Source: Gordius sp. MW1
Taxonomy: Eukaryota > Nematomorpha > Gordioida > Gordea > Gordiidae
Reading direction: 5' to 3'
Length of the DNA: 64,000 nucleotides
NCBI GenBank assembly: GCA_964036665.1
Contig: OZ038526.1
Span: forward strand, 5,704,001 to 5,768,000
Positions 18,118-53,470 of the stretch are shown in pieces. The notes below the pieces were generated by a model, which saw only the letters and a list, made by a program, of their open reading frames with translations, ran no database searches and had not been told where the DNA came from. The position numbers were made by a program, and so were the translations under genes. Numbering within the stretch: the first letter of the stretch is position 1; each line of letters starts with the position of its first letter.

Positions 18118-18475
18118 TATAATTATGAACTATTCACTTTATGCAAACTCCAACACAAATCAAATTCAAATTGCGTTGTTCACATAATACAAAAATGGTA
18201 TATCGTTTGTAGGGAAATTAATTAATAATTATATTCGATGATATTAACTCCTTTTTCTCTGATACGAATCTCTTCCTTTCTATCTCTTGCGCCAGTTGTT
18301 ATTATCCCTCGAGTCTTTTACGTTACTGCGCCAGTTGTTATATTTCCTTTGTTCCCCGCTTACTATCGTCTAGTATCTGGTAAATACCCCTTGTATCTGA
18401 CCGCTATCCTTCAACACCCCTCTCTCCCACACCACAGATATTTAAAACGTATATGAAAGACGACATATACGACAT
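18118..18475 (+). repeat. Inverted-repeat arm, left
   Basis: About 358 bases that recur almost perfectly as the reverse complement at 19866-20226. They include TTTCTCTGATACGAATCTC, two GCGCCAGTTGTTAT repeats and the end GACGACATATACGACAT. The 72-codon ORF within it is duplicated with the arm and has no recognisable product. Confidence 0.9.
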
Positions 18476-18558
18476 TAGTCTTTGTATACCATGTCGACAC
18501 TATTTTATTATATATATGTTACATGTTATTCTAAATTTATTATACTAATCAATGATAA

Positions 18559-18715
18559 AATAAAAAAAAATTAAAAAAAAATAAAATAAAATAAAGTAAA
18601 ATAAAAAAAAAATATAAAAAAAAATAAAAAAAAAATAAAAAAAAAGTAAATATATATATAAAAAAAATAATAACAAAAAAAAAGAAAAAAAAAATAATAA
18701 CAAAAAAAAACGGGG
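18559..18715 (+). repeat. A-rich (AAAATA)n tract
   Basis: Runs of A with scattered T and G, for example AAAATAAAATAAAATAAAGT. A second tract is at 19066-19195. They bracket the 18720-19065 loop sequence. Confidence 0.85.
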
Positions 18716-18848
18716 AGAGGAAGTGGAGAAATTGTATTTCTCATGTTTGTTTTGGAAATTGATTGTGGGTGTGGATAAATTGTATTGCGTTTTCGAAAAT
18801 AATTGTGTATTGATTTGGAGTATAAAATTGTATTGTATATCTCTCGGT

Positions 18849-19065
18849 TTTGTGTAGTTATCTATAAAATGTTTGTAAACTTTATATGTTTTAATTGTAT
18901 ATATTTTATATGTTATTGTGTTGTAAATGATTGTATTCCGCTTATGTTTAAAACCTTTTGTGTAGTTATCTATAAAATGTTTGTAAACTTTATATGTTTT
19001 AATTGTATATATTTTATATGTTATTGTGTTGTAAATGATTGTATTCCGCTTATGTTTAAAACCTC
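18849..19065 (+). repeat. Tandem duplication, 108-bp period, frame-preserving
   Basis: Two almost identical 108-base units, starting with TGTGTAGTTATC at 18851 and 18959 and ending with CTTATGTTTAAAACC. As 108 is divisible by three, an ORF across them (18803-19096) reads the same 36 residues twice. The predicted peptide is Cys/Ile/Tyr-rich and ends in a poly-Lys tail from the A tract. I do not regard it as a gene. Confidence 0.85.
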
Positions 19066-19195
19066 CCTTCCAAAAAAAAAAAATAAAAAAAAATAAAAAA
19101 AATAAAAAAAAATATATATATATAAAAAAAAATAATAAAAAAATAATAAAAAAAAAAAAATAATAATAATAAAAAACAAATAAAAATAAAATAAG
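19066..19195 (+). repeat. A-rich simple repeat
   Basis: A runs with T and TA steps (AAAAAATAAAAAAAATATAT, AATAATAATAAAAAAC). Partner of the tract at 18559-18715. Confidence 0.85.
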
Positions 19196-19865
19196 AAGGT
19201 GAAGTGAGGTATTATTGCGATATTATATGTGTACTCTGGTGCTATTTAGATGCTATATCGGTGTTCTCGTAATTAGTTATTTATATGTGGATGGATTATA
19301 ATATTTCCGTTTTATATTAATTTTATCATATTTTTATTATATATTTTATTTACATAATTTTTATTGTATATTTATATTATTATATGTTTGAGTTTGTAAT
19401 ATTCTCCTTCTATGTATATGTTTATATCACACCGTTCGTGAGGATTTAGTGGTTGTCGATGTAAAACCTTAAAGATGTATAACGGTGTATGTGAAATAGT
19501 GTGTTACGTCGTGATGTATATCAGAGCATGTACATTTATATTGTAATATTTTTTTTTGTATATTTATAGTCTTATATGTTGTATGGTGTATGTAAATTCT
19601 CATTCGGGTTATGTATGTGTATCACATCGTTCGGGTATCGTTAGTGAATATTGAGGGAAGTTGTCTAAGGAGGTGCAACGTTGAATGTGAAATAGCGCAG
19701 TTGTGTCGCTGTTTATATAACGGAAAGTGTTAGTATCGAATTATGATTATGTGATAATAATGTAGCTTTGTATATCGCGCACAATAACGGTACGGAAGAG
19801 GTCAACAAACGAAAGGGTGTGAAAAAGGTCAGCAAGAGAAAAAGAAAAGGAAGTAAAAAGGGGAG

Positions 19866-20226
19866 ATGTCGTATATGTCGTCTTTCATATACGTTTTAAA
19901 TATCTGTGGTGTGGGAGAGAGGGGTGTTGAAGGATAGCGGTCAGATACAAGGGGTATTTACCAGATACTAGACGATAGTAAGCGGGGAACAAAGGAAATA
20001 TAACAACTGGCGCAATAACGTAAAAGACTCGAGGGATAATAACAACTGGCGCAAGAGATAGAAAGGAAGAGATTCGTATCAGAGAAAAAGGAGTTAATAT
20101 CATCGAATATAATTATTAATTAATTTCCCTACAAACGATATACCATTTTTGTATTATGTGAACAACGCAATTTGAATTTTATTTGTATTGGAGTTTGAAT
20201 AAAGTGAATAGTTCATAATTATATTT
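19866..20226 (-). repeat. Inverted-repeat arm, right
   Basis: Reverse complement of 18118-18475 with very few differences, giving a potential 360-bp stem with a loop of about 1.4 kb. At its distal side a third, direct-orientation copy follows at 20220-20390. Confidence 0.9.
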
Positions 20227-20830
20227 GATGATATTAACTCCTTTTTCTCTGATACGAATCTCTTCCTTTCTATCTCTTGCGCCAGTTGTTATTATCCCTC
20301 GAGTCTTTTACGTTACTGCGCCAGTTGTTATATTTCCTTTGTTCCCCGCTTACTATCGTCTAGTATCTGGTAAATACCCCTTGTATCTTTATATAACGCG
20401 CACGATAACGATACGGAAGATGTCAGCAAAAGAAGGGGTGCGATCAAGGTCAGCCAAAGAAAAAGAAAGAAAAAAAGGAGGTGTCATATATGTATGACAT
20501 ATATGTGAAGATATATGTGAAGAGTAGCTAGCATGGCAGGGGATATGTGACAGAGGTTATACGATAGTAGGAGGTAGACAAAGGAAATCGAAGAAGAGCA
20601 ACGTAAGGGACGCAGGGAGAAGAGCAACTGGCGTGGAGCCTAACACGTATATGTCAAGAATAGCAGTCATAGATACAAGGGGTGTTTACCAGATGCTAGA
20701 CCATAGTAAGCGGGAGACAAAGGAAATCTAAGAAGAGTAACGTAAGGGACGCAAGGGAGAAGAACAACTGGCGTTAAAAACCAACAACTGAAACAAGACA
20801 CATAGAATGAGAGAGGGTCAGAAATAAAGG
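20220..20830 (+). repeat. Further copies of the arm sequence
   Basis: 20220-20390 repeats 18230-18400 in the same orientation and is therefore inverted to its neighbour at 19885-20103, a second palindrome with a 120-base centre. Diverged minus-orientation pieces follow at about 20565-20640 and 20675-20780 (GACAAAGGAAATC, GCAACTGGCG). 20485-20525 has tandem CATATATGTGAAGA. Confidence 0.75.
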
Positions 20831-28782: not shown

Positions 28783-28921
28783 TCACGAGTAAAAAGTTAG
28801 GACGCTTTGCTGATTGCCCCTGAGCAAGAGGATTGGAGGTTTCAGATCGCTCGTGATCATTTCCAGCCACGACATGTAAAGGGCTGAAGGGCACGAACCC
28901 TTACGTGGAATGGGTAAAGTC
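28783..28921 (-). CDS. SLC12A2-like: Copy B exon 25 (C-terminus)
   Basis: 139 bases including [23 protein letters not shown], then [18 protein letters not shown]. The near-invariant NKCC/NCC tail establishes the gene end. The acceptor is TTTCAG. Confidence 0.97.
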
Positions 28922-31900
28922 CTGAAATGTCAATTTAAAAAGATCAATTTTTTTTTTTTTTTACTGAAGCAATTGTTTATTTTATTATGCAAGATTTACA
29001 TTAAATGAAACTAAAAACAACATAAAAATCATAGAGGTAAACATTCAAAAATTGCCATAGCGTTGTAATGGCAAATAATCATTCCGATTTTCTGTTTTAT
29101 AAAAAAAGTTTCCCTCCTAAAACCCAAGCCCTCCTGAAGGAATTGGGACGCCGCATAGCTGCCAATACCCTTGACAAAAGATCAATTGTAAAGAAGAATA
29201 GAAATTTAGGCTTAGAAAAATAATTTGTCCTACTAAATACCTTTTGGAAAATAATTTAATATGTGGCGAAATAATGACAAATTCAATTTGTCAACCATAA
29301 TAATATTTAGATTTTCGGGGGTTTAGGATAGGGGATAGTCCATTGCGCCAGTGCGTCTGCAGGTGTTCATATAAAGTGATTATACCTAAGCAGCACCCAT
29401 GAGCAAGTTCCCTATTTATTCGTAGATGGATTTGTAAAAATCGTTCATCCTAAACGGCTGTCAAATGATAAAGCTGGCCCATAAATTTAATTTTTTGTTG
29501 TCTTAGTTTAGAATGTAAATGAGATTAAAATTAATTTTAAAAAGGATCGGGTATGGGATTAAAAACACTCCGGCTACTCATTCCATACGAATTGAATGCC
29601 CAAAACGGGTTTATTATAAAAAAAAGAAGACCTTTATGTACTAGAAGACACATAGGTAAAAAACATCAAATGGGCATTCTTTAATTGAAAGCAATCAGTT
29701 TTAAAAGTATCTTTTAGATTAAAAAAAACTTGGAATGTATGTCGAAAATCGACATTTTAAAAATTACAATTAAAAATAAAGTTTTCATCACCTAATTATG
29801 TATCACTATAAAATAACAAGTTATGAAAAAATAGATTAAGACCCCATACAAAATATCATCGCCAAACATTAGCTATATTAAAATAAATATTATAGAGGGG
29901 ATTAACATGAAAATTATGTTGGCGTTGGATGAATGCTGCATTAACATTTCATGTAAGCGAATGTGACGGAACGTTTTGCCCAGGTTAGCTGCGTATTCAG
30001 TGTCCGTTATTAAACCTGGTTGGTAATCGGGATTGTCCGTTGTGTCGACGCGATACTTTTCCACGATATTTTCGAATTTGGTAATCCTACAAAAAAATTG
30101 AGCTCGCCAATTACACAAGTCCACATAAAAATAGCCAGCAATCGGATACATATTTCGTATAGCGAATTTTACGATGAACAATATATTTTTAGTTTTTTTC
30201 ATAAGTAATGAGGTTTAAAGGTGCAAAATGGATTTTTTGACGTTTTTTAAGGCTATATTCCCACGTTATTTTAAACTTATTTTCAATAATATTTAAAATG
30301 ATATAGGTCCACAATATTATATTTTGTCCCACCTCTACTTTTAGTTTTGTCTGCGTTTATCTCAACCCTTTTCCCGCATCCTATTATGTCTGGGATAATA
30401 GAGTACATTAACGTATATTTTACATAAACATATGCGATGTTCATGAGCCATTCACTATCTCCCTACACTTACTCTCTCTCCATCTCCTACGCTACCGCTT
30501 CTCTTTAGGGCTTGGTTAGATATGAGGGCAAAAGTGGAAGAGAAGGATAAAGGGAGGGGAGAAAGAGGTGAAGGGAGAGAGGTAAGTGTTACTAAAGGGA
30601 ACCGGTCAAAGTAGCAGAAAAAAAGCAGCCAAATTGGTCAGTTAACTGATCAAGATCAAGATTAGTCAGGAGGGTTAGGGTTAGTGTTTTAGGTCAGCGT
30701 TTTAGGTTAAGGTTAGATGCACATCAAATTCTCTCCCAATTTGAGATTTAATTCTAATTTGTTGATTATCTAAAATTCATATTTTTCTGCTACTTTTCCA
30801 TCATTCTGTTACTTTGACCCCTATCCGTTACTAAACACCGCATATGTAGTAGAGTATGTAGTCTACTTACTCTGTTTTCCCCTTAGGTTTTCCCAGACAT
30901 AGTGGGAGGACTTTTAATGCGGGGAGGGGGTTCAGATAAACGCATAAAATTAAAAAGTGGATGAAACTATAAGATTAAAATTATGTTCCCTTAGATCAAT
31001 AATTAGGACTGTATTAATTTACTAAAAATATTTTTTAAATGTCGTGGGAAAACAGCCTCAAAAAACATTAAAAAGACCATTTTTTGCATCTCAACCTCAC
31101 TTATCAAAAATTAAGGACTATCTGGGAAAAAAACTAAGAACTTATTACAGCGTAAAATTCTCTATAAGACTTATTTGTCAGATCACGGGGTGCAATCACA
31201 AAGTCAATACTTGTAGACCTGTGAATTTTTAAAATCGGCGAGCTTATTTTAAGAGTGATCGGTAACTCTACGTTTATATAAAGCGAAATAATTTTCTGGA
31301 AATAAAGCGACGGTTCCAAAAGCTGGTAAAAGGTTGAAGCATATTTTGAGTGTCCACAAGGTTAAATATTAGAGTGGCTACACAGAGGTGTCGGGATACA
31401 TTATAAATATAGGCCACTCAATAACATATTAATTTATCAAGAAGTATTGTCTGTGAAAAAAATAGCTTAAACCATATGGACTTGACGTCTGATCACTTAG
31501 ACTAATCGTGTATATGAAAATAATTACGATGTTGGGTAGGGTGATTTGTGGATATCCGGCACCACGATAACGTGCGAATATTCGATGCGAAACTTGGTCA
31601 ACATAGCTCCAAAACTAGTATTAAAAAATAATTATGGCTTAATAAAACTATTTGTGGTGTTAACGATCGGTTTGCTGGGTATGAGGAAGTTAATTTTTAT
31701 TTAGCGTTTCAACTTGACACGCATGTATGCCTTTTTATTGAATTAAAAAACACGTAGTCTGTAATCGTTAATGAACAAAAGGTAGGAGAACCGCCCAACA
31801 AATTTATAATATTAACAATGCTATCTTTTATGGGATTAATGCAATTCTTAGAAGGGAACAGATATTAGAAATTCAATATGCTGATTTACTTTTGGTGTAC

Positions 31901-34900
31901 CAAATCGAGTTGCTTTTTGTCTTTCGTGATGGCAAAAACGCGCATTTCGCAATTCCTCCAAATCTTCCTCTGCGACATGATGAAGGGTAGCAAGATGGTC
32001 AAGCCTAAAAGTGTAATATCGCAACATATTATAATCATTAAAAATAGCATACACGCTATATTCAAAGATATCCAAATCATATATACCTCCGTCATCGAAA
32101 AGCCACCAAACGTCAATCGTTCCATGCGTATTTTTGTGGCGAAACCGGTTAATGATAGCCCTTTTTTCAAAACCCCGTAGGGCTAGGGTCGTTGCTTTAG
32201 GAGGTAAATTTTCGGCCGGCGAATTATCATGATTCCCTTCACCTTCGGCCTCGTGGATGGCGTCGATTTTTGAGACGATCGCTTTCGAGCTCGCGCGGGA
32301 ATTAGATAGTTGTGGGTCTGGTTTGGCTCTCAACCCCTTTCTTATCATCAAATCGTCGGAGCGCCGACGCAAGAACGAAGCCATTCTACCCCGCTGTTCC
32401 GCCTTAGGTTGATTCGCGCTCGGGCCGGCCACCTTAAGAGCGGCCAGGTTTAGCATGCTGGTCGTTTTGGGATTTAGGCCATCGGACCTGAGTGACGCCT
32501 TTGTGGTATTTGGCTCGTTAAACTTTTTGGCCAACACCAAATTCGACAGCCCCACATCCTTCAAACTTAAGCCCGATTTAAAACCGTTCACAGACGCTAG
32601 CTCAGATTCGACACCATCTATCGTTTCAATGGCGGCCAGCGGCGGAGGGTTCATATAATCTGGGCCCAGGCCGTACCCTACCAGCTGATCAGCTTGAGTG
32701 TAACGTGACCGACTAGGCACGAGGTCGGTTTTGAGCGAAGGCTTAGACTCGTGGCGATCCTTTACCTTCGTATTACCTTGGTCTGTTTCTTGGTCAGATG
32801 GGATGAAATAATCGTTATCGATACCCTGAGCAAAGTCAAGGTTAAGTTCATCGTTGATGTCACCTAGCGATAATGTGATAACAAAAGGATATGAAACAAC
32901 TTTTGTGCCTTCTTAAGTTAATGAAATTAAAAGTATTTGTTTAGCTCAAATAAAAATTATGGCTAATATCACCAATATAATGCCATAGATAGAATATTAT
33001 ATTTTTAATAATTATAAAATACCTTTAACGATTGATTTATAATCCATATAATTTTATTTATTTAGCATCTATGTATAAATATTAAAATCGCACTAAATCG
33101 TGATAAAATTAGCCTTATATGCAATGCTGCTTGCCAAATGATAAGCTATAATGAAATCTGCTAAAAACCATGTTTAGTTTTAAACAACCTTGCTCATGGG
33201 CGTAGCTAGCATTGGGATTAGAGGGGGGCAATAATGATTTAGGGAGGGGCAAAATGAACATTTTTTGAAATTTTAGCCATAATTTTAATAAATTTCAACA
33301 AATTTTTGGATTTAGAGAGGGGCAGCCGCCCCTCCCTGCCCCCCCCCTTTGGCTACGCCTATGACCTTGCTAGATATCACGGTGTATTTCAAGCAACTCT
33401 GCTCGATGCCAGGTTAATTTTTATCTCACTCGATCAACAACCATAAGCACTTTAATCAAACAGCCAGGGCTTCAACCGGGTTAAAGTGCCATGTGCACGT
33501 TAGACTTGATGGGAATGGTGCGAGATGTATGCCTACCACCAGGGTAGAGCACAATGCAAGCGCAACCATATTGAGCGATTTAACAACGCTAGCCCTAACT
33601 TTCACAAGTTTGGATTACTTATTGTTCCCATTCGTTTAGGCTATTTAGTTTGGCCTTTATTTAAAATAAATGAGTGCTTCTAGTCGATCAGAACAAAACA
33701 AAGATCATTAAAAAACATTGGAAGGAATCCTAAAATATTACTTTATTCAACTGACTCGCACTATAAATAACATAGCCTGTCAGTGTATTAGCTTAGAAAC
33801 CCGGCAATGTTGCACGGTAGCAGTGCTTGAGACATCTACAACTCAGCTTGGGATTACTTGAACTGTCTTAGAGCTAAATTAAACCATTTTTAAATATAAG
33901 GATTAATTAAAACTTCATCCAATCTTTAATTCAAAAATGACAAATGCTTTATCCCATTTAAAGACGAGCCCAAAGTTGTTTTGTGACATCGCTACCTGTT
34001 GAGGACATGGAGCTTGAAGATGATGAAGTTTCGGCAAAGAAAGTCGAAGCGGGCAAAGACTTGCGTCGGCTTCTCTTGGCTGGCTGATGTTCGTGGTGCG
34101 TGGACCGCTTGAAATATTCGACCGTCGATTTAAGCCTATTACGCTTGGCTATGGGCCACCCATGGGTCGTAGGCAAGGTTGAGGGCTTTCCTTGTTGGCT
34201 CCTCGCCACGGTACTTTTCTGGTTATCCGGGCTTATAAGGGTTTCATTTTCGCTTCTTCTATTGCCTCCCCCGACCCCCAAAATCTGACCGACCCGTTTT
34301 ATGGTGGTGTGCAGGGGTGAACGAGATCTTGAACCTGATACATACATTTTACATTTTGGTCAAAAAAAGCATAGACACCTCTAAACTAAATAAACCTTTA
34401 TAGGCCAAACTACTAATAACATTTGCAAAACAAGTTTAAAGTTTTAGAAATTAATAAATATAACTTTAATTAACGTTAAAGCATATTACCAGGCGTCTGA
34501 AACGCGATTCCAGGGTTGTCAGTAACGCCGTTGGCATTAATTTTCCTGTGGTCGGGCGATGTTTCCGAAGATTTCACTTCAAAATTAGGATCGCTCGTGC
34601 TGTTACGCTTAAGTTGGGGCTTGGTTTGCATTAGAGTTAGGAGGGAATGGCCCAAGCTGGAAGTGGGGCGGAGTTTAGACAGTCCGAAGGAAGTATGAGT
34701 TGGTTCGCCGACCTTGCCCACATCTTTTAGGCACCAAGTCGAACCGGGGAATAAGCTTATTTTGCTGCCGGTCATGAGTTGTTTGACTAGGTTGGAGTTC
34801 GATTTTCCGGCCGAAACGACCGATTTCGAATCGTTAGGGTCTCCCTCTCGGATGACAACGGCGGTGGGCAGGTAGGCTGCTGTTTGGCTCTCCATGTCAT

Positions 34901-37900
34901 CCAGTTGGTGACTTTCGACATCTTTGTCGCGGTTGTTATTGGATAACGCCTTACCCGATGGCCAAAACAGTCCGAAACCCTTCTTTTTGGGGATAGCTCC
35001 TGGCTTAGTTGATGTCTCAGGATTCGATCTCGAGATAATCCCTAATTAACAAACGCGCAATGCTTAAAATATCATCTTCGAGGGATAAACTCTTTTTCAC
35101 AGCAATAAATGTCATTTTGTCATATACTTACCTGAGTCCTTAATTATGGTTTAATAAATGGATTATGTAATTAATTTAAACTTCTTCTTCACCTATATTG
35201 CACGAAACACTAGTGATAATATTCGACTAAACTGGCTTTTCCTTACTTAATATTATAATTGAGCTCTAACGCGTGTTTGTGACATAATTAAAGTAGCTTG
35301 AACAGGCTCACTAAAAGCGATCCTACTAGACCAAGTTTCGATTGGCGTTATGATTAAAAATTAGAATGCTCTCAAAAATCGCTTTGAGCATATAAAAACT
35401 GAGACCTTCAACGCAGCCTAGGGCTCACCTCCATTTTGGGGAATATTCTTAAGTTGGGTATCAAGGGTTGCATCCCCCTCGACTAGGGTGGTTGGGCCCA
35501 GGTCTTTGCCCAAATTAATTTTATCCGACATAGCTTCGTCATCTTGAACGAAGGAAGCGTTATAATAACTCTCTTCATACTGACTCGCATCGACGTGAGT
35601 GTTGCGACGCAACGGGACCACCCTTTTCGCCTTTTCGCCAAACAGCAAGGATGAACAGTCCAGACCTTCTGACACCCTGAGGATCCCAACTGCTAGCCTC
35701 ATGTCGAACGCGTCGCTTTTAATCATGAATAGATAGATTTTATACTTTAATGTATAAAATATGTTAAGAGTAGGAACAATTAGACCGAGGGATGAAAAAC
35801 GTAAAAGAGTTGTGAGAAGTAATGCATTTTTAAGCTTCCAAAACAAAAGTTACCGCATATCGTTATTTTTGGCCAAGCAATAGTTAAGTAATTCTACGTT
35901 GTCATAAAAACTTAAAATCCGACACAACACAAAGATTAAATAGTGGTGATAAAAGGGGTGTTAAACAGTTTATAGCCTATTTAATACAAAAATAAGCATT
36001 CTAGGCCTGTTTAATCAATCGAAATCAAAAATTTACTTCAATAGACAATCTAAGAAGTTCAACAAGTTTGGGTTAAGCTCATTTCAAGAATTTAAAAGGC
36101 TAAAAACGAAATTTAGTTAGAAAAGTTAATGGAGGGAGGCCTCAAATTGTATGCCACTAAAATTAGGGTTTATTTTGCATGCTAAAACTGATGATCTGAT
36201 TAAAGCTAGATTGTTCATACTGTATAACGCTAAAGTATTGTTCCACGTCCTTAATGTCGACCGAACGCCAGTCATTTTTGAAGCCCATCATGATGATATT
36301 AGGAGTCAAGCGCCCCAGTCCGGAAACCTAATATACACACAAACGTTTTAAAATGTAATAATAAAATTGTATGAGAAAAAAATCACTACATTTACAACAT
36401 TTTATACAACTGCCCATGAATATCAAATAGATTAAATTTATATTTCAAAAATCCAGACCGATTCTTAAATTTAAAGTCTATTTCATATACAAATACAATG
36501 TCATTGGTGATAAAACTTAGTAAAATATTGATAAAGTATTTTTTATGCTGGCTCAGTTTATACTTCCATTAAAGAACGCACACCGGTTTTGAACGAAGGC
36601 GATATGGTGCAATTGTAGAGGGCCTTAAGACGCCTGTTTTTCAGAGAGGTGTAAACGGCCCTAGTGTCTATGGAGAAAACCTCGTCGTCTATGTAAGGCT
36701 AACCAACAAACAAACACAAATTGAAATTATAATATTTAGTGTAGAAAATCTGGTATCTTTATTAATTTGTCATCATGGGCGTAGCCAGGGGGGGGGAGCA
36801 AGGAGAGGCGGCTGCCTCCTCTAAATCCAAAAAATTGTTGAAATTTATTAAAATTATGGCTAAATTTTCCAAAAAAATGATCATTTTGCCCCTTCCCAAA
36901 TCATTATTGCCCCCCTCTGATCCCAATGCTGGCTACGCCTGTGTTTGTAACCCTTATTTGCGGGAATTATATTCCAAAATATTTCTAAAATGTTATAAGG
37001 CTAAATCTTTAAAGTAATGAAAAATGGTCTCTCAATCGAAATATGTTACTTTGATAACGTGCCCACATATGAGGAGGCTGATGTTTTTGGTGAACAAATT
37101 TGCGAAGTCGACAAACGAAGGTCTAATCCTCGGGTCCCCGGTCAAGGCTAAGATTTGAGGCCTTCGATATTAAAATTATCATTAAATACGAGAAAAATTT
37201 AAATATAAGTTCAGAGCTCATTTCATAAAAAAATTGACGAGAAAATATATCAATTTCTCATTTATAATGGGTGAAAAAACCAACCGTTTTTGATCCGTTT
37301 TTCTTGATCGACCTTTAGGCTTAGTCGAAATTTTAAATTAGACCAAATGTGTTAGTGTACTTTTGTTTAGTCGAGCCTTTAGCCTTAATCACAATTTTTA
37401 TAATAGATAGGTCAAAAGTTTTTTATCTGTAATTAGTCGTTAGTTTGGTTTAGGTGTAATGGGTTGGGGAAAAAATGGTATAATTTAATATTTTGAATTT
37501 TTTGTACAAAGAACACATTTAGCTTTATGAGTGACAATTATGACAATTGTCACCACAATAAGTTTGTGAGAACTTTATGACACTTTAAGCAATCATTTTT
37601 TGTTAAAGGGTCACATTCGACTCCATTAACGACATTAGTCACCAAGTTTGACAAATTTAAGTTTTGTGTATAATTTCATTTTATGACACCTCAACCCACC
37701 AATTTTCGTTGGAAGTTGTTATTTTCCTCTATAAATGTCCCTTATGACAATTGTATCAATTTGACAAAATTAATAGAAGGGTTTCTCAAATTTGATTTAC
37801 ATCCAGGGGGGTAAATATTAAAAATTGCACTCAACAATGATAATAATCGTAACATTACTATCGTAGAAAATGGTGCCTCCATATATGCCACTTATTTTCA

Positions 37901-40900
37901 ACGTCACTATATGATCACCAGATTCAAAATATTAAATTTAAGGCCAAAATCCTTTGCTCTGGTTTTCAAATCTTGACTAACCCTAATAAGAAAAATAAAT
38001 TGAAAAACTTCGGTCTATTTTGTTTAGCGGACTAACACCAAAGGCAAGGCCGACTAAACAAAACCCACATCTTTCAATAATACTACTCCATTATTTTATT
38101 CTTATAATTTTTATTTTTTTTAAAGATGAAGTTAGTTTATTGATATATATCTAAACATAATATTAAATGATACAATTATATAGACACACACGACTTCTCA
38201 TTTAAATTAGATAGATGATTTTTAATATTAATATTGCAATACTTATTTATTCCATTTTCTATTTACTATCAATGATATTGTACGTATAAACAACAAACAA
38301 AAAACAAAAAATTAGTTAAAAATTAGCATTAAAATCAGACGAATGGAGGGAAAAACTTAACACATAAATATGTAAAAATATTTAAAATAGCCCCAAAATT
38401 AATAAAATAAAGAGAAATCATTTAAATACCTAAATGTTTTGACGTGCTCCTCAGTTTCGTTCAGCCGAAAGATGGCATCCAGTGCCGCCATGTACACGTG
38501 AGCCTGGGTAGAGGACCCCCAATTTACGTCTATTTAGGGCATAAATATTGCGAGGATAACAAAAATTAAGCCAAAACCACGCAACAAAAATAAAAATTTC
38601 GACAATATTTTCCCATATGAAACGTTTCACTTTGTTAAATATTGTTTGCTTTTTTCAATGGTATCGTTTTTTAAATACGTTGGAATGCTTTTCATTATAA
38701 AAATAGTTCCAAACTTGTCGCAAAAAATCAACGAGACCAACGAGTCTCAAATTAACTAACAGTATTGAAAAAAGATACCATCATTTTTATAAGGAATATT
38801 AATGAATAGTCATACATAATTTCTAAAAAAAAAAAGGTCCCTTAATAATTCTGGCAATCAATACGATTCAATCAATAGCTTCAAAAATGAACCCGGTTTT
38901 TTGATGCGAATGTAGAAGTAAAGGAAGACGACGGCAACGATCGTGACCAAGGCGGCCCACCATTTGATAAGGAGCATAGCTATCACGCATAGAATTCCAC
39001 CGATTAGACTGATCCAACGATTATAATATTTGAAGCCCGGTCTAAAACCTAAGTCCATCCGTGGATGCAGAAATCATTTTTACAACATTCACGCAAGAGG
39101 TTTGGCAAATGTCAATTTCAAAAGCTCGACCCCAGGCTAGCTAGCTTTTATATTTAGCCGGCCTGGGTCCGTCATCAAATTTCAATTTTTTATTCACATC
39201 AATCCGCTTAAGAAAAATTTTATTTGATAATTAATGCTTCTGAGCAATATTACGATTTTGGTTTAGATAATGTTGCATTTCGTGATTAATATTTAAAAGT
39301 AATATATCTTTGAAAAATATTTTGATCAAGATTACATTTTCCTACATAAATTGACTAGCCCCAGTTCATGTAAAATTGAATTGCATTAACCGATTCGAAA
39401 GATGGTAAAATGTCAAATTTTATGAGACTATTAATTTATTGCTGCTTACGGAAATATACATACATATATAATTCGATTAAAACTCATGCATACCAACGGA
39501 TTTGGATATGGAAGCGTGAAAGCAGGAATAATTGATCAGGGCATAAGCCATGAGGAAAAAATTGGAAATGATGGGCGCGATCACGTTTAAATCACCTTGG
39601 TAAAATACAAAAACATCAAACTTGAAATGACAAAGAATCGATAAAAATAGTAGTTTTTACTGATATAAACGGATTTATGATGAATTTTTATTCAACAGCA
39701 AACCTACCTAATAGTACGAAGAGTATGCCTATGATAAAGGCTAGAAAGTAAGCCCGGAACGGATCGTCGTTCTTCTTGGACCCAACCGCGAAAAAGTGAA
39801 TAAACGGAAACAACTTGTCGCGACAGAGGGCCTTAAAAATTTAATAATAATAATTAAATTATAAGCGAAATTTAATGAAATTTTACTAGCATCATATGTA
39901 ATATAAAAGTCAGTATTTTGTTATGAGTGTACTTGGAAAACTTTGGATGAACCGATGAGGCAGGCCATGGCCGAGGAGAGGGTAGCAGAAAAAATGCCAG
40001 CCATAATAATCCAACTCGCCCCGCTTGCCAATTCAACGAACTGTTTCCAAGATCAATTGAAAAGTTTAGTTTGTTGTGAATTTTTTCGTAATTGTGAAAC
40101 AATGATTAAAAATTCATTTATATTTAAAAAAAACCACCATTTATATTAGTAAACATATCCATGGGCATACCCAAGGAGAAGAGAAGTGCAGATGCTCCCG
40201 TTAACCCTATATCCTATTACAACTATGAAAAAAATCTAGCCTTGCACCGCTACATAGATCGTTTTATAACCATTCCTGACTACGCTTATGTTCGTAAGAA
40301 TGTTTTCAACGTTACATCGCATATCTAAACTTACGTGATAATCGTACAGGAGTCCGAATTTACAATTTTGGGTCACATCGCAAGACCTGAGTTCACTTCC
40401 CTTCTGGTAAAATGGCACACTGCTCTGTGGGAAAGAAGTATTTTGTGGGGGCATGAGTTGGGCAACGGATCCCGAAGCAGCTCGAAGCCCGCAGCCGCCG
40501 ATAGTCCAAATCATGGCGAGGTAGGATACGGCCGTTATAAATATGGCTATGAAAGTTCCTTTTGGAATCGCCTTTTGAGCGTCCTAAAAACATGTCGCAA
40601 AGTAAGTTTAAAGTAGTTTAGATTCTCTTTATAAAAATTAAAAAATGCAGTTTTGGGGGATGTTAAATCGTTTTTAAAGGGAACTAATGGGAAATTAAAA
40701 TCCCTAAATCTAATTGCAATCTTGGGTTAATAATAGATTTGTTGAAATAAATCAATAAAAAATTTAACCAAAATTTCAAATAACATTTTTATTAAATGTT
40801 ATGCAACTTATAAGCTCACTTTTAGTGAAAAATGTCGTGTCCTCTGTTTAAATTTGGGTTTATAATAGAAAATTAAAATATTTTAGAAAGATTTTTACCC

Positions 40901-43900
40901 TCTGAAAAAGAATTTTTACTCGAATAAAAACTAGTTAATGACCGCAGCCAACCTTTTTTAACCCCGCCCGAGGGCAAATTCCGTTTTCATTTTTGTGCCT
41001 CATAGGATTCCCTTTTTGAATCTCAATTAATTCTTCTTGAAGCTTGTCAAAATTTGAGGTTTAAAATCGAAAACTAGGCTTCTGACTTAATATTTGCCCA
41101 AACAAAAGTAATGATCGCTGTTTACATTTAATTTTCCGACCCCGGCCCGAGGCCGCAATACCTCATTATTTGTTGAGGCCTCAACTAATCCCTCCTGAAA
41201 TCTTTTTGATGTTTTGTAATGGAAAACTAGGAACATGTGGCTAAATTTTTGCTTAAAAATAAATGATGACCGCAGTTTGCATTAATTTTCTCAATCGAGC
41301 CAAAAATATAGACAAAAAAACAGCATGAAAACCAGGCCCTAGCGTTGCACTTAAGTGACACGCGCGTTTCTCGCCTGGAATGTGAATAATAAACGAAGGC
41401 AGAGCCATAAAAGATATGTAAAAGGGAAATAGAACGTAGGTTAGAACCACAGTGGGAACTACAAAGGATTTCGTCATTAATATTCGAGTCCATCTAAAGC
41501 CTTGCACGGGCAGCCCGACCCGGGGCAGAATTTTATAACATAATCGGGCCTAGGGATCGGGTCGGGCCTGATGCGGCAGCCCAACCCGAGGCTCGAGCGC
41601 CGCCCGAATTGAACCAAACAAATTAATCTTTTATAAAATAGGATTTAAATAAAACTGGATATTATATAATTATTTTTCGCACAGCGTACATTAAATAGCT
41701 TTCAAACTTCAGCATTTTTCCCTTGTCTATTATAATATAACTGACCTGCAAATCTTATTCTAGTATTTAAATAGATTTATAGTAGCTGCTTTAGAAATAA
41801 AGTAAATATTTCAGAAGGTTTTTTATTTTGTTTGAACTCTTAACAATATATTTTAAAAAGTCAAATTTTTAGTAAATGATTAACCGAACGAATTGTAACG
41901 AGTGAACAATTTTTTATTTTAAACTCATCCTAGCCGTAAATACGATTAATAATAATCTATTTTATATTTTCATGATAAAATTATTTTTTTTCAAAAATTT
42001 CATTTAAAAAATCTCGTCGGGCTCGGGCTCGGATCGGGCCAAAAATAAAAAAATCTTTCGGGCCGGGCTCGGGCAGAAAAAATTTCTTTACGGGGCTCTG
42101 AGTCCATCAGGGTTCGGCTCTTAGTCCCTTTCTATTCATAATGATAACGAATATTATTACAAAGGATTTGGGCGAGGAAGCTCCTTGGGCACTGATCTTT
42201 CCAGTTGAGGTGGGTAAATGCAATAGAAGAAAGTGATCTGAGGGTAAATCAAAAGAAAACAGAACACATAATGAAAAGCTTTAAATCAGATCAAAATCAG
42301 CAATGTTCAACCCTTACTTTGAGCGAATAAGAACATATAGGCGCGGAGTTCTCTAAATATCTAGGATCAACGCTTCGAGCGAAGGGTGGAATGGACAAAG
42401 AAATTTTAAGCAAGGATAAAATCAGGTGGCTTAAATGGAAAGATTTAACAGGCGTTTTCATTTACGAAAAGATCTTAACAAGACTCAAAGTTACGGTCCG
42501 TCATACAGCCAACAGTCCTGTATAGCTCGAAATCGTGGACTATACGTAAGGGCTTGTCTTAATATCGGATGCAGATTCAAATGGCGCGAATTTAACTTTA
42601 TCAAATATCCGATTTCATGTTTCAAACTCGGTTGTAATTATTAATATTTTCTTTTTTGATAGTTAAAACCGTTTTTTGTTTATTTCAGCTCTTGAGATTA
42701 ATCGCTGTTATGTTATGCGTCTGAAATGTAAATTTGCTGTGAATTCGAAGTTAAGACACGGCTATGTTATAACCCGTACAACGATTTTTGCTGCGCATCA
42801 AAATCCGATATTAAGACAAGCCCTAAGATGGAAGAGCAATGCTGAGCGTCAATGGAGATGCAGATGAGAATGCTAAGATAGATGTTAAAAGTAAGAAAAA
42901 AGAACATAAACGCAATGAAAAAATAAGCAGTATATACAGAGACAAACTAATGCTAAAACGACTGACCACCAGCCTAGGTGATAAAGAGGCATAGAAAGAG
43001 GTTTGCCTTTAAATTATCTAACCCGGCCCGAGGCCAACCCTTTTCTCAGCCGATTATTTTTAAAGCTTGTCCAACTTGATGCTTTATAATGGAAAATTAA
43101 AGTAGTTGCCCAAAAATAAATAATGACCGTTGTTTGTATTTAATCCGTCAGACCCCGGCTCGAGGGCAAAATTCTCTTTAATCGACAGTAAAATAATTTG
43201 ACTAACGCTTCGTTTGTTTGCTAAACTTAAAATCTTATATAACTTAAAGCGATTCGTGTAAATTTCATTTATTTAAATATTAATTTTTGTTAAAATGTTA
43301 ATAACAGTAAAATATTGCAGATTTTTCAGGGCACATTTAAAAATAACAAAATTTTATTGTAGCATACCTTTAAATCACCCGAGATATTGGCACCGGCCAA
43401 GATCCCTGTGGCCGAGGGGAAGTATATGGCAAAGATGGAAAAAAAGGATTCGCCTTTGCGGAAATCGGGCTTAAAATTTTCCCGGAATAGATAGGCTAAT
43501 AATAACAAAAAATTGAAAATTATTTGCGAAAAAATCTTTAATAAATCAATAATGAATTTTTTATAAATCCCTCCCCCTTATCAAACAAGAAGGTTAATAA
43601 CTTTTGTATCCTGCGAAGCCCCTGGCTTCCTTGTACTTGGACGGACCAGTCAAGCTTCCCACAAAGTAATTGGCGAAGGAGACCAGCAGTATGATCAAAA
43701 ATACGATTTGAGCCTATAGTTTGGGAATAAAAACAATGACCGGCTCATTAATTCAAATATTTTAGCATTTATTTTTATTAGTGATTTGAAAATAAATTAC
43801 ATATTTAATTATGAATTTAAATATTAATATATTATATACAATTAAAAATAAATTAGAAACTAACAAATTCTTTAATAAAATCTGTAAACATACATGACCA

Positions 43901-46900
43901 CTAAAGTATTCTGTTGTAAATTTAGAAATTAATATTACTTTTGATTCCCATTCCATACCAGCCAACGCAACTCCCAGTAAGAACACGACCGCTATGCAGC
44001 CAACGATGCGGGTCCAATTGATCGGGCTGATGCCGTACAAAGTTCCAGTGCTTGTCTTAAGTTACAAACACAACAATCCAATATTAAATGGGTGGGGTAA
44101 ATGTGACCTCAATCATGTTGATATAAACTGTAAAATGGTCATAAAATGGACAAATTGAGATTAAACTTAATTCCTACGATACAAATGATAGTTTAATTTT
44201 ATAAAACTTAGCAATCGTACTTTGCATAAGCGGAGCAAAATACAAGAGAGTGCTAAAATTCTTGAAAAGCTATGCATTTCGGCTAAATTTCTAGCGACTT
44301 TAGGGCCAAGGGGGAAGAACAGCTACCCCATAGTGCTATACCCTGACTACACGTGAGGTCTTTTAAAAAACTAATCTATAATCCCGCACATCCCTAGTAA
44401 ATTAATATTAACTCCGCTACAAATTTTCGTAATATGTTTCTCTTAATTTTAAGATCTTTTTTCCAACGATGTAAGGGTAAAATGAGAGATGTTACTTGTA
44501 TGATTTCGACGACGGCCTCAGCCAGGCCCACAACATTCATGGAAATGGCAATGGCGTTGGCCAGGGAAAATATGACGCCTATCGCACCACCAAACTCCGG
44601 CCCAAGGCTACGTGATATCATAAAGTAGGCGCCCCCTTGTATTTTTGAGTTAAAAAAATAGTTATTTTTAACAAAAAATATGAAATATTTTTTAATAAAA
44701 AAGGTATAACACACGAGTCATATAAATTAATCAGACCATTAATGAGCCACTTATTGATTGGAAATTACAGATAGATAGATACTCATGGGCGTAGCCAGGG
44801 GCGGGGCAGGGAGGAGCGGCTGCCCCCCTTTAAATCCAAAAATTTGTTAATTTAGTAAAATTATGGACAAAATTTTAAAATTAATCATTTTTCCCCTCCC
44901 TAAATCATTATTGCCCCCCTCTAATTCCAATGCTAGCTACTCCCATGTAGAAACTAGTTTACAAAAAGTTTTCAACCCACTTTTTTCCAATAATACCTAC
45001 AATAAATGTGAAAACTTATTTCTTTAGAGAGCCTAGCAAAAGCGAAAGTAAACAATTACCCAAATAATCACATTTTTTAAAAAACTAAGTTTTTAAAAAC
45101 CGCAATAGGCGATTCGATTTTTCCTCACGCAATAAGTCAAAGAGCGCTAGGTATTGTTTAGGCTTCAATTAGTACTAATAATCAATAAAATACCCTAAAT
45201 TTTAATTAGGCTATCGATTTTAGAGTTAACGATAATATGATTTGAACCTCTAACTAATTGCTCCCAACCAACGCAGCAATTCCAGAGGGGTAAAACAAGA
45301 TCAAATTACTCTGGAGAAAGCGAAGACATTTCCTAACCAAATATTTGAGGGAAAAATGAAAATTTAGTTTCACATTTTGACAGCCTTACCAGCAGCCACA
45401 CGCTACGGCATAAATAACATTATTTGTCATCACCACCACCGATGTGTGAGCGCGCGCTTTGCGAAGTAGGGGACCAGGGTCGTGTATAAAATTAGCACTG
45501 AAATATCAAGTTTTGCACATAACATAGTCTTTAGAGATAACTATGAGCGTAGGTGTGAAAAGCGCCTGCCACCCACCTCCCTCATATTAAGTAGTAAAAT
45601 TTAAAAATTTGAAAGTTTTTATATTTTATTCCACAATTTTCGGAGTTTGTTTAAATATTGTACACATTGACACACCGACGACCTTCCCGAATGGATAAAA
45701 TTGTTCTTTTGAAATAGCCTTGGCATTTTTACCGATATCCGTCATTTTTATTTTAACTAATTTAAGTCAGGATTCTAATGACTAGATCAAAATAAATAGG
45801 CACTGATAAACAAGGGTAAGGCTTTACACCTAAATAACACTACTTGGGACTACATGTCTTAAGGGTGACCGAATTAGTGGATTTGTTGAAATAAGAGGAA
45901 ACATTCTGAAATTAAAGGAAAGCTAAGCAATTCCCAACATTATTCCAACTTTATCCAATCCATTACAAAAAAATATAGTGATTATAAGAAATTAGTAGAG
46001 TTATTAAATTGCTAACTTTTTTCAACTCCAGCTACCATCTGCTCAAGTTTCTGCTCGACCCTCGAGCATTTTTATAGGCTACTGTTTTGCCTAGTGCACC
46101 GAACAGCGAGCACATATTGTGCTAACGCGCATATTAAGCAACTCAGTGTGCGTGCTCGGGTCTGGAGTTTGAAGAAAGTTAGCAATTTAACATCCCTAAA
46201 TTAGCTTAATTGTAAACCATTAAGCACGTTGTTAAAGGCAAGCTCATGCGGTAGGACAAAGTAAATTTTTCTAGCCTAAATATATCCATGTGGATCCAAA
46301 TGAGCTGCTAATTCTTCTTTATTAAGATAAAACAAATTTTTCTAGATCAGCCAATAAATCGTTGGGTAGTTGTTGTTGTTGTTGAGGTGTAAGTAGGTGA
46401 GCGTACATAAAATAATGAAAATTTAGCAATTTTGCACCTTTTATAAATTAATTATATTATATCGAAAGTGCGAAGCGCATTTGAAAATTTTATCACTGCC
46501 CGCCATAAATAATTTAGATTATATACGTGAAAAGATGTTGTCGCTTTTATTGTTGATATTAGATTGGGATCGTTACTTTAACGCTAAAAGCCAATATCAC
46601 GACACCATTAACAAAGCGAAACGTTGAATAAGCATTATAAAAATTTGATCTTAAGAATTCCTACAACGATACGTAATATAATCTGTCATGTTATTCACAT
46701 CCCGTTTAAAAAAGATATACAGTCAAAACCGTTTAATTGCAAAGCCTTGGGCCTGAACATTTTTCGCGATTAACCGATATTTCGCGATTAAACGATGGAA
46801 ATAAAAGTATATGTACATTATATTAAATATTCATTTCTGACGCTTCGCAATAAAACAATATTATATATAATTATCTGGTTGATTTAAGGACTCGAAAATG

Positions 46901-49900
46901 TTTGTGAATATTTAATATTGTACTATTAAGCGCTTTGTCAATAAACGATGTTTTTGTTGATATTATCGTTAAAAAAAACAAAATGGCGGTTAACTTCGCG
47001 ATTAAAAGATTTTTGCGATAATCCGATTTGCTATTAAGAAGTTTCGACTGTAAATATTGGGTTAAAATTGTGTGCAGCATTTATTGAAGGTATGGCTTAT
47101 TTTGAAAATTAGATACAGCTCAAGTATAAAAACCGGGCTTAGCTAGAGCAAGACCGGAAAACCCATGCGATGTCATACACGTATTCAAGGCAGGCTAGGA
47201 TGGCGTGCAACTTTTACGAAAAGGTAAAGCGATGTATTAATTAAATTATGGCAACTAATATATTTTGTGGTTTAATTTACCGGGGACATAAAAATCACAC
47301 TTTATATTGATCAAAACCTAGTGGGAACAGAGAGAGCATCGCCTAGAGTTAAGCTATTTAATACGACTTCCGCTCTCGATTGATGTCTGGGGGGGGGGGG
47401 CATAATAAGTGCTCAGATAAGCATTAGTTCCACAAAAGGGCCAGGAGATCAAATTTCCAAGAAAGTACGTGTTAAATTTGATAGCAAAAAACGGGTCAGA
47501 TCCGCATTGTTTTTGCAGGTTTTTCATTCCTAACAATATATCGTGTAAAAAAGTCTAAATAGTTTTTCTCAGCAAAAAAACTGGAATTCTTATTCTTCGA
47601 ACTTTTATTTGAGGGGGGTTTCCGGCCAGACCGGGTTGAAATTTATAGAACGTTTTCGGGAAAAATTTAGAGTAGATAAATTTTTCGACCCTGGTAGCGA
47701 ATGAAACTTAACTTTTTGCTTGTAGGCTGACCGCAAACATTCCAAGCATATTTGACAAACACAGAGCGCGCGTTCGTGACCGAATGTCATATTCAACTAT
47801 CCCGCCAGTTACATAAATGTGTTAGACATGCTAGCCCTGTCCTAAAGGCATCGAGAAAAACGGAGACGACAAAAGACAACCGTATTAAATGGTAGAAAAT
47901 CGAGGCACTTTGCAGCTCAATCTTAAAATTGTACACCACGCTGTCGAACGTGACGGTCCTTTAATGGCGGCGCTTAGTTAATACTGTACTTTTCAGTGAT
48001 TAATGTTGCCTTAAATGGATCGATTTTTCCCTAGATCAATTAAAAAATTGAAAATTTTACGACCAATTTTTAAGCTAAAGCATTTGCTTTCGAAGGAAAC
48101 TTCTGCACAATGCCCCCGATAGCTGGGAATTAAGTTCCTATATATTGGCTTGAATTTAAGATTCACATTTAAAATTATTTTGAATCAAGTGGGAATTGAC
48201 ATTTTGGGGCCAAGCGTTGTAAAACTATACTTCGCATACATTTTTATCAGGATATATTTATAATAAAAATCCCCAAAAAGTAGTTTTTACATTATGGGCA
48301 AAGTTTAATTTTGTCATACATACCTCCCTTGACTTCCCCGTTCGTGCATATGGCAGACATGGACATGGAAGTTATCATGGTGACCGTCACCGAAAGAAGT
48401 ACAATAACGCTCGCCAATCCTAAGGCCAACCAACATAAAATTAATATTTTAAATATTCTGACGCGTAATAAAATGTAAAAATATAAAACGCTCTTAATTA
48501 AACAAGAAACTAGTAAATTTTCTTTTTTCTAAAAATATAATAATGGCAAGCCCATGATAACCCTGTAATTTTGGTCGAATTTGCAGTCGATAATTAAGAC
48601 GAGGGTTATCAATTTAAAATAGCTGTAAAAGTTGAGAAATTGGAGGCTAGAACGAAGCAGGCCAAACTACTATGGGTAAAAGGCCAAGCCAGAGGCCCGG
48701 CTGGTCCTAAATTTTCAATTTTTTGTTAAATAAAAATCACACCTCCGAGGGGAATCAACTATGTTGGCACACGCGACTCATATTAGGGTAGAAGTTATTC
48801 CATTTAACCGATGAAGTTTGTTAGCAACAATTATAAAATCGCTATTCGCGTCGCAAATTATGGGATCGGCAACTTATCGATAAATCAGGTGTATGCCTCT
48901 CAACCGATTTTTACCTTGAAATTAATAATGGCGCTGCAACCTCTCACCCCCCCCCCCCGTTCCCTACTCAACAAGTTGAAGGTTATATTTAACGCTGGGT
49001 GGTGTTGGTAATTAGGGATTATATTTATTTGGAGAGGTGGATTAATTAATTGACAGATACTACTTACTTGTATATACACTCCAGGCGCACGCATCTATAT
49101 ATAATTATATTTGATGTTTTCGCGATGATTGTTACAACAGAGTAGTGGAATCGCGGTAAGGGATCTTTTATTAAAAAATTGGTAATCAGTTATTGAGGAG
49201 AAATCGATAGGCATAAATATTATTGGTAGAGCGGACAATTAAAAATTGATTTGACCTTGCCCGCAAAACTAACGATCGGGTGAGTCTGGGCCCATCTGAT
49301 AAGCGCCATAGATATTATAAAAGCGCCTCGGGCCTGACATTCAATAAGGTTATTAGTGAAGCACGTTTTTGAAATATAATGCTGTTAATTTAAAACATGA
49401 TTAATCCACAAATTTCCTTATCTTTGAACATCGACATATTAGAGTTACGAGCTAATACCCTGCCCCCCCCCCTGAATTTTAGGTAAAACCGGTTAATCAC
49501 CAAAGGTATACTTCCAAATTCAATTATTTTTGCACTTAAAGCAAAATTCAGTGCAAATTTTTAAACTATTCACATTCAGGGTATTGCGCGTCTTATTTGC
49601 AACGTGTCCTTAAGTGTTATTTGACCCTAAAGTCGCCTTCCCTTTGCCTGCCCCCCCCACCCATGTTTTTTACAATAAGTCGGGCGTTTAGGATTTGTCG
49701 TTTTTACAACGTTAACAATCGATTTTATTAGGGGATGAAAGGATTAGGGATATGGGTATGGGAAAGAATGTTGTTATAGAGGTCGAATGAAAATTGCATT
49801 GTAATTTAATAAAGTGTCATATTGGGTAGGATTGAGGCCCTGCTAATTTAATTTATCTCGGACCCGACAATGACAAATCCTCCATGGGCGTAGCCAGGTT

Positions 49901-53329: not shown

Positions 53330-53470
53330 TAGAGCAGTAGTTCAGGCAAAAATTTCATAATCTAATAAATGCATATACGCCTAATCTCGGCTGCAAAAAA
53401 TTTAAATTTTGCGTCACAATGTTCAGCTGATTTAAGAGTATGTATGAACCTAGAACTCAAAAATTGGATA
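53330..53470 (-). promoter_or_regulatory. Conserved upstream block of copy B
   Basis: Aligns with 6526-6665. The best-kept core, about 53387-53443, reads on the minus strand CAGCTGAACATTGTGACGCA then AAATTTAAATTTTTTGCAGC. Similarity between the copies ends beyond about 53470, marking the duplication border. Proximal promoter or 5'UTR is inferred. Confidence 0.4.

Follow-up and report, generated by a model that had tools for sequence, protein, structure and literature searches.

An enlarged, probably disordered linker in the C-terminal domain of an NKCC-type cotransporter gene of Gordius sp. MW1

The stretch of DNA analysed here, 64,000 nucleotides of contig OZ038526.1 (positions 5,704,001 to 5,768,000) from the nematomorph Gordius sp. 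MW1 and hereafter called the window, carries a cotransporter gene on its minus strand, the copy that we label A. The joined conserved exons of A matched NKCC1, the best of its solved relatives, with an E value of 6.7e-213, compared with 2.2e-203 for NCC and 5.3e-78 for the best KCC, and a scan of A and its paralogues gave exon matches to Pfam SLC12 above the cut-off. Because the NKCC and NCC values are far better than that for KCC and the Pfam matches agree, sequence comparison places A in the N(K)CC branch of the SLC12 cotransporters, nearer NKCC/NCC than KCC. Our subject is the linker between the two halves of its C-terminal domain (CTD), for which four minus-strand exons (35715–35429, 35041–34490, 34334–33996 and 32863–32087) encode exactly 613 residues between the conserved segments LLFG and GTIDVWW.

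The exon labels e18 to e22 are taken from an earlier note on this DNA and were fitted to the exons examined, not to a full gene model. Splice sites and translation agree with that note on the span (32087..35715), the four exons and the count of residues. Exon e18 (35429..35715, minus strand, like all exons of A below) holds the end of the first CTD half and then, as read from its splice sites and translation, a first linker piece of ~70 residues with the motif RRNT. Exons e19 (34490..35041, 552 bases) and e20 (33996..34334, 339 bases) are entirely linker, and e20 contains RRKSLP and a run of serines. Exon e21 (32087..32863, 777 bases) contributes linker with RRRSDD and two long islands identical between gene copies, followed by the conserved end. 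The three introns between e18 and e21 and the one after e21 are all GT/AG and phase 1, and e19, e20 and e21 are symmetric 1-1 exons. As the lengths of e19 and e20 are both multiples of 3, these two are in-frame cassette exons within the CTD linker.

By a hand count on the alignment, human NKCC1 has ~87 residues between the same points, making the linker of A ~7 times longer. The earlier note had described a 613-residue insertion; the length stands, the insertion does not, since 613 is the entire linker and human NKCC1 already has ~87 residues, leaving a net gain of ~525. Nor is the extra length, real as it is, a single insertion: the region consists of a pair of new cassette exons, a flanking pair that has lengthened, and one conserved end. 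That end is not new, because Pfam recognizes SLC12 in residues 191–257 of e21 (E 1.8e-6) and a solved NKCC1 chain aligns with residues 210–257 (E 0.00022). The longest sense frames in the 5-kb stretch (354, 189, 143 and 133 amino acids) are long beyond chance; among 2000 first-order Markov sequences, a frame of 354 was reached by 0, one of 189 by 8 and one of 133 by 166. GC content is 0.50–0.52 in the exons and 0.24–0.35 in the three introns. Codon usage, for which the true frame is the best of six in e19 and e21, lends these frames weak support. A search for direct repeats of at least 18 nt as a source of the added length found none.

In the genome searched (12 contigs, 211.8 Mb), five further copies bear on this linker. 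Copy B is a tandem paralogue ~60 kb from A on the same contig and keeps the same four linker exons; C lies on contig C6 (about 2.52–2.54 Mb), and the contig of the window also carries D, E and F. SLC12-like matches on contigs C3 and C4 represent two further genes, which were excluded from the tree. In the compared conserved exons, A, B and C are mutually 89–90% identical and form a clade with support 1.000, within which B and C group together (0.985). D, E and F are 60–69% identical to A, B and C and to each other, and 63–68% identical to A. The B stretches examined did not yield that gene's first membrane exon, which is absent from the A–B comparison. A second N-tail-like peptide on the minus strand of the window (6241–6333, ending in RPSLYDLH; E 0.003) is probably, from its sequence, the 5′ end of B, with the body of that gene outside the window. 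For paralogue E, a single exon of 834 amino acids in an open-frame listing was not confirmed by the frames actually read.

Copy C is decaying. It was aligned exon by exon, as a whole-region alignment misplaced it in e18–e20. Its conserved exons contain one stop and lack one codon, foreign sequence of ~1 kb sits close to the end of e20, and the middle of e21 is shifted and carries stops; e19 was not detectable by exon-level comparison or genome search, so this exon is present in A and B alone of the three. The conserved exons of C are still constrained against A, with ratios of non-synonymous to synonymous substitution rates (dN/dS) of 0.134 and 0.166, and the damage is therefore either recent or partly an assembly error. 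Because C pairs with B in the tree (0.985), the long linker is older than the split of the three copies, and e19 has been lost from C. A itself was considered as a pseudogene and rejected: its compared conserved exons are open, with a dN/dS of 0.15.

Selection was estimated between A and B by the Nei–Gojobori method with a codon bootstrap, dropping gapped and stop codons; linker values were computed for this pair alone. The linker as a whole gave a dN/dS of 0.447 (0.35–0.55, 602 codons), the conserved exons before it 0.149 (0.11–0.21, 556 codons) and the second CTD half 0.136 (0.05–0.26, 182 codons). Taken separately, the linker part of e18 gave 0.345 (0.17–0.69), e19 0.436 (0.29–0.69), e20 0.426 (0.25–0.75) and the linker part of e21 0.507 (0.34–0.76); for none of the four did the upper bound reach 1. 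The earlier note had held that a linker ratio near 1 would speak against it; between these paralogues the ratio is not near 1. The eight A–B indels within the four exons all have lengths divisible by 3 (9; 3, 9, 9; 6; 12, 3, 3), while intron gaps are of many sizes, and aligned identity is 82–85% in exons and 61–71% in introns. When the four-exon coding stretch of A was changed in simulation according to the observed substitution table, a mean of 10.3 stops appeared and 0 of 2000 runs were stop-free; the corresponding stretch of B has zero stops. Retained introns as a source of the linker were ruled out by the same comparison of indels, stops and identity. Given a dN/dS below 1, in-frame indels and no stops, both genes have translated and retained the linker since their divergence, which supports the view that in either copy it is protein subject to purifying selection.

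These data also bear on whether the long linker is an artefact of the gene model, with e19, e20 and the 5′ part of e21 partly or wholly intronic, or used only in a rare transcript, so that the predominant protein has a short linker. The phase-1 junctions would permit splicing of e18 to e21 or e22 in frame, and the long form may have minor or tissue-specific use. However, B keeps the four exons open, its indels relative to A preserve the frame, 10.3 stops would be expected where none is found, introns have diverged further than exons, and the linker dN/dS is 0.45. An artefact is thus very unlikely.

Several predictions suggest that the linker is mostly disordered, as the earlier note had supposed. 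The enrichment in Ser, Lys, Asn and Pro noted there is confirmed (Ser 11.7, Lys 8.0, Pro 6.5 and Asn 6.4%, versus 8.4, 5.3, 4.0 and 3.6%, respectively, in the conserved exons). Disorder-promoting residues make up 55% of the linker and 43% of the conserved exons, the charge–hydropathy value falls barely on the disordered side, and AlphaFold gave a mean pLDDT of 43.7 for e19 and 37.2 for e21, the most confident part being the conserved end of e21. The net charge is +19 in A (613 residues) and +44 in B (615 residues). We also considered whether the linker hides an unrecognized folded domain acquired by exon shuffling, a process that symmetric 1-1 exons suit. The AlphaFold model of e21 does show short helices. 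Against this, Pfam found no new domain in e19, e20 or e21 and returned SLC12 alone; the PDB search, which covered e19 and e21, gave no match for e19, and for e21 only NKCC1 chains and a weak ribosomal-protein match (E 0.5). Low pLDDT and the lack of a second genomic source for the linker exons also count against a folded domain, to which we attach very little credence. The earlier note's failure to recognize any domain thus stands for new domains in these searches, although not for the end of e21, which is SLC12.

Conservation within the linker is uneven. Residues identical between A and B are clustered in islands (as clustered in 1 of 1000 shuffles); stretches of 16, 15 and 14 residues are fully identical, the last of these lying within the conserved end. 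Identity reaches 83% for Lys/Arg and 82% for Asn, compared with 69% for the linker overall. All three RRx[ST]-type sites of A (RRNT, RRKSLP and RRRSDD) are identical in B; copy C keeps the first two exactly and has RRSSED in place of the third. We take these to be basophilic sites of a PKA/PKC-like or 14-3-3-like type. Other motif classes showed no conservation: a dileucine occurs in A only and a YxxPhi in B only, and A and B have one calcineurin-type motif each with differing strings. The e18 linker peptide of A, kept in B and C, resembles YTNPAFVRDD from the N-tail of paralogue D (C8:0.77 Mb); a pattern of this kind, made post hoc, had four matches in 431,382 residues, all of them in these genes.

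The strongest rival to a regulatory function is that the linker is a sequence-indifferent disordered spacer, a solvent-exposed loop that grew by exon gain and drift and was tolerated, its function being length or entropy at most, so that length would matter more than sequence. A linker dN/dS threefold that found for the conserved exons, Ser and Thr residues kept no better than average, the absence of e19 from C and the unrelated lengthened linker of E are all as such a spacer would have it. The identical islands and a dN/dS well below 1 in every exon are not, and we regard this explanation as rather unlikely, though the most serious of the rivals.

We therefore give a modest preference, at somewhat better than even confidence, to the reading that A is an N(K)CC-type gene with a real, mostly disordered and derived 613-residue linker between the folded CTD halves, acting as a regulatory arm. 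By analogy with NKCC1 and KCC2, such an arm would be flexible and positively charged, with short conserved islands serving as docking sites and as basophilic-kinase sites (RRNT, RRKSLP and RRRSDD) that may be phosphorylated. Through these sites it might change the coupling of a domain-swapped CTD dimer to transport, or the destination of the transporter, and in-frame skipping of e19, e20 or both could tune it. The linker is thus probably a lineage-specific control arm and not a gene-prediction error; a phosphoregulatory role is something that we infer only.

A number of observations weigh against this interpretation. Selection was estimated between paralogues only, not between species. Codon usage favours three other frames over the true frame in e20, and one antisense frame in e18. 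The AlphaFold input consisted of two sequences each (the A and B copies), making low pLDDT weak evidence of disorder. Exon e19 was lost in C, albeit from a decaying gene. The earlier note's 'phosphorylatable regulatory' module fares less well than its other claims: although the RRx[ST] sites are kept in B, Ser/Thr identity is 64%, below the linker mean of 69%. Chance alone would preserve the key positions of three such basophilic sites with p ~0.04, and their joint retention was examined post hoc; no SPAK/OSR1, PP1, SH3 or WW motif was found in the linker of A or B. Bolder still is the idea that this NKCC subfamily has shifted much of its control from the N-tail to a giant positive arm in the CTD that bears docking islands and two exons open to skipping, the N-tail-like peptide included. 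We consider this improbable; if true, the transporter would be a membrane-anchored signalling scaffold besides an ion carrier.

The paralogues offer some insight into how the linker arose. D, E and F seem to share with A both the start of the exon before the linker intron (SDAFD) and the end of the exon after it (DDGG), and to have one phase-1 intron there. Their linkers come to ~101, 177 and 101 residues when counted by hand from splice sites, a count that may miss small exons and for D and E rests on weak donor scores, and their similarity to the linker of A is confined to the GTIDVWW end. Because these linkers appear shorter, at ~100–180 residues in the distant paralogues, the long linker appears to be the derived state. 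It would have arisen most simply if an ancestral phase-1 intron gained two symmetric 1-1 exons (e19 and e20) while e18 and e21 grew. By the tree and exon comparisons, the long form arose before the A/B/C duplications and is confined to one subfamily of this genome. When an origin for the linker exons was sought throughout the genome, the best matches, apart from copies A–C themselves and the conserved end shared with D–F, were E 0.136 for e19 and 0.314 for e21, with none for e20. Paralogue E (C8:6.38 Mb) has a moderately long linker of its own (~177 residues), Pro/Thr-rich and with RKLSARRNS, unlike that of A.

The remaining parts of A lie on either side of the linker exons, all on the minus strand. 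The start of e22 (31889..32005), with a TTTTAG/GC acceptor and homology to the paralogues, opens the second CTD half; the outer exon ends are approximate. The last homologous exons (28786..30094) were placed by paralogue homology and the NKCC1 alignment, and the non-contiguous exons for the membrane domain and first CTD half (36220..48423) by tblastn against D, E and F and the NKCC1 alignment. A likely N-terminal tail is encoded by an open frame at 52961..53341 (exon ends approximate), which contains RFMV and KVEHYKDIF...RPSLYDLH and resembles the corresponding tail in paralogue D (match at E 3.3e-4); we take RFMV to be a SPAK/OSR1-type docking motif, which together with a conserved phosphorylation region is a mark of the N(K)CC tail. 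The introns share a short repeated element (window 33195–33352, 36772–36943 and 44779–44947) that appears again in introns of several paralogues. Elsewhere in the window (18229–20497), three frames encode a near-identical peptide (LYSMILTPFSLIRISSF...) on both strands, so the element is repeated in both orientations. Beyond the window, a 14,798-base contig (C12) encodes mitochondrial proteins; it has repeated LLLPYYYLTIT peptides near 3.7–4.0 kb, and its ND5-like peptides (AAMAAPTPVSSLVHSST) apparently recur inverted, repeats that possibly reflect assembly trouble. TTAGGG repeats were seen at five of the six contig ends read, and the end of contig C8 (37430497–37431996) has a GGACAACGGAC-type repeat unlike the other five.

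Overall, we see here a linker of a kind already known from the CTDs of NKCC and KCC transporters, greatly enlarged in a single subfamily. Structures of NKCC1 and KCC2 have a domain-swapped CTD dimer, and activation is proposed to release the dimer (PMC7889885). In human NKCC1, exon 21 (48 bp) lies in this linker and its inclusion varies by tissue, and skipping or mutating it lowers chloride influx in cultured cells (PMC7159186). The gene studied here is like vertebrate NKCC1 (SLC12A2) in its transporter branch, in the place of the linker in the CTD and in having an in-frame cassette exon there. It is unlike NKCC1 in having 613 as against ~87 residues, in that sequence similarity was found only at the conserved end, and in that the cassettes are here predicted from gene sequence. 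The other parallel is KCC2 (SLC12A5), in which 6 of 10 known regulatory phosphosites lie in a disordered 134-residue CTD region (PMC9355526). The KCC2 region between helices alpha8 and alpha9 is likewise a long CTD loop, as is the linker of A, here predicted to be disordered; yet KCC2 belongs to another branch of the family, its region has 134 residues instead of 613, and the sites in A are motif matches. A further comparison is with paralogues D, E and F, which are similar to A in their conserved exons, apparently in the ends of their flanking exons and in having one phase-1 intron, but differ in linker length and, outside the GTIDVWW end, in linker sequence. No description of such an enlarged linker was among the top-ranked results of a search in a partial literature collection.

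Control of NKCC-type transporters through the CTD is unsettled, and the vertebrate linker is short. On exon evidence, some copies in this genome have a linker ~7 times longer, and sister copies in the same genome one that is much shorter, so that paralogues with 63–68% identical conserved exons provide a direct setting for asking what the linker does. The locus further provides a clear example of a transporter gaining probably disordered protein through symmetric exons within a single intron, and of selection then preserving the gain.

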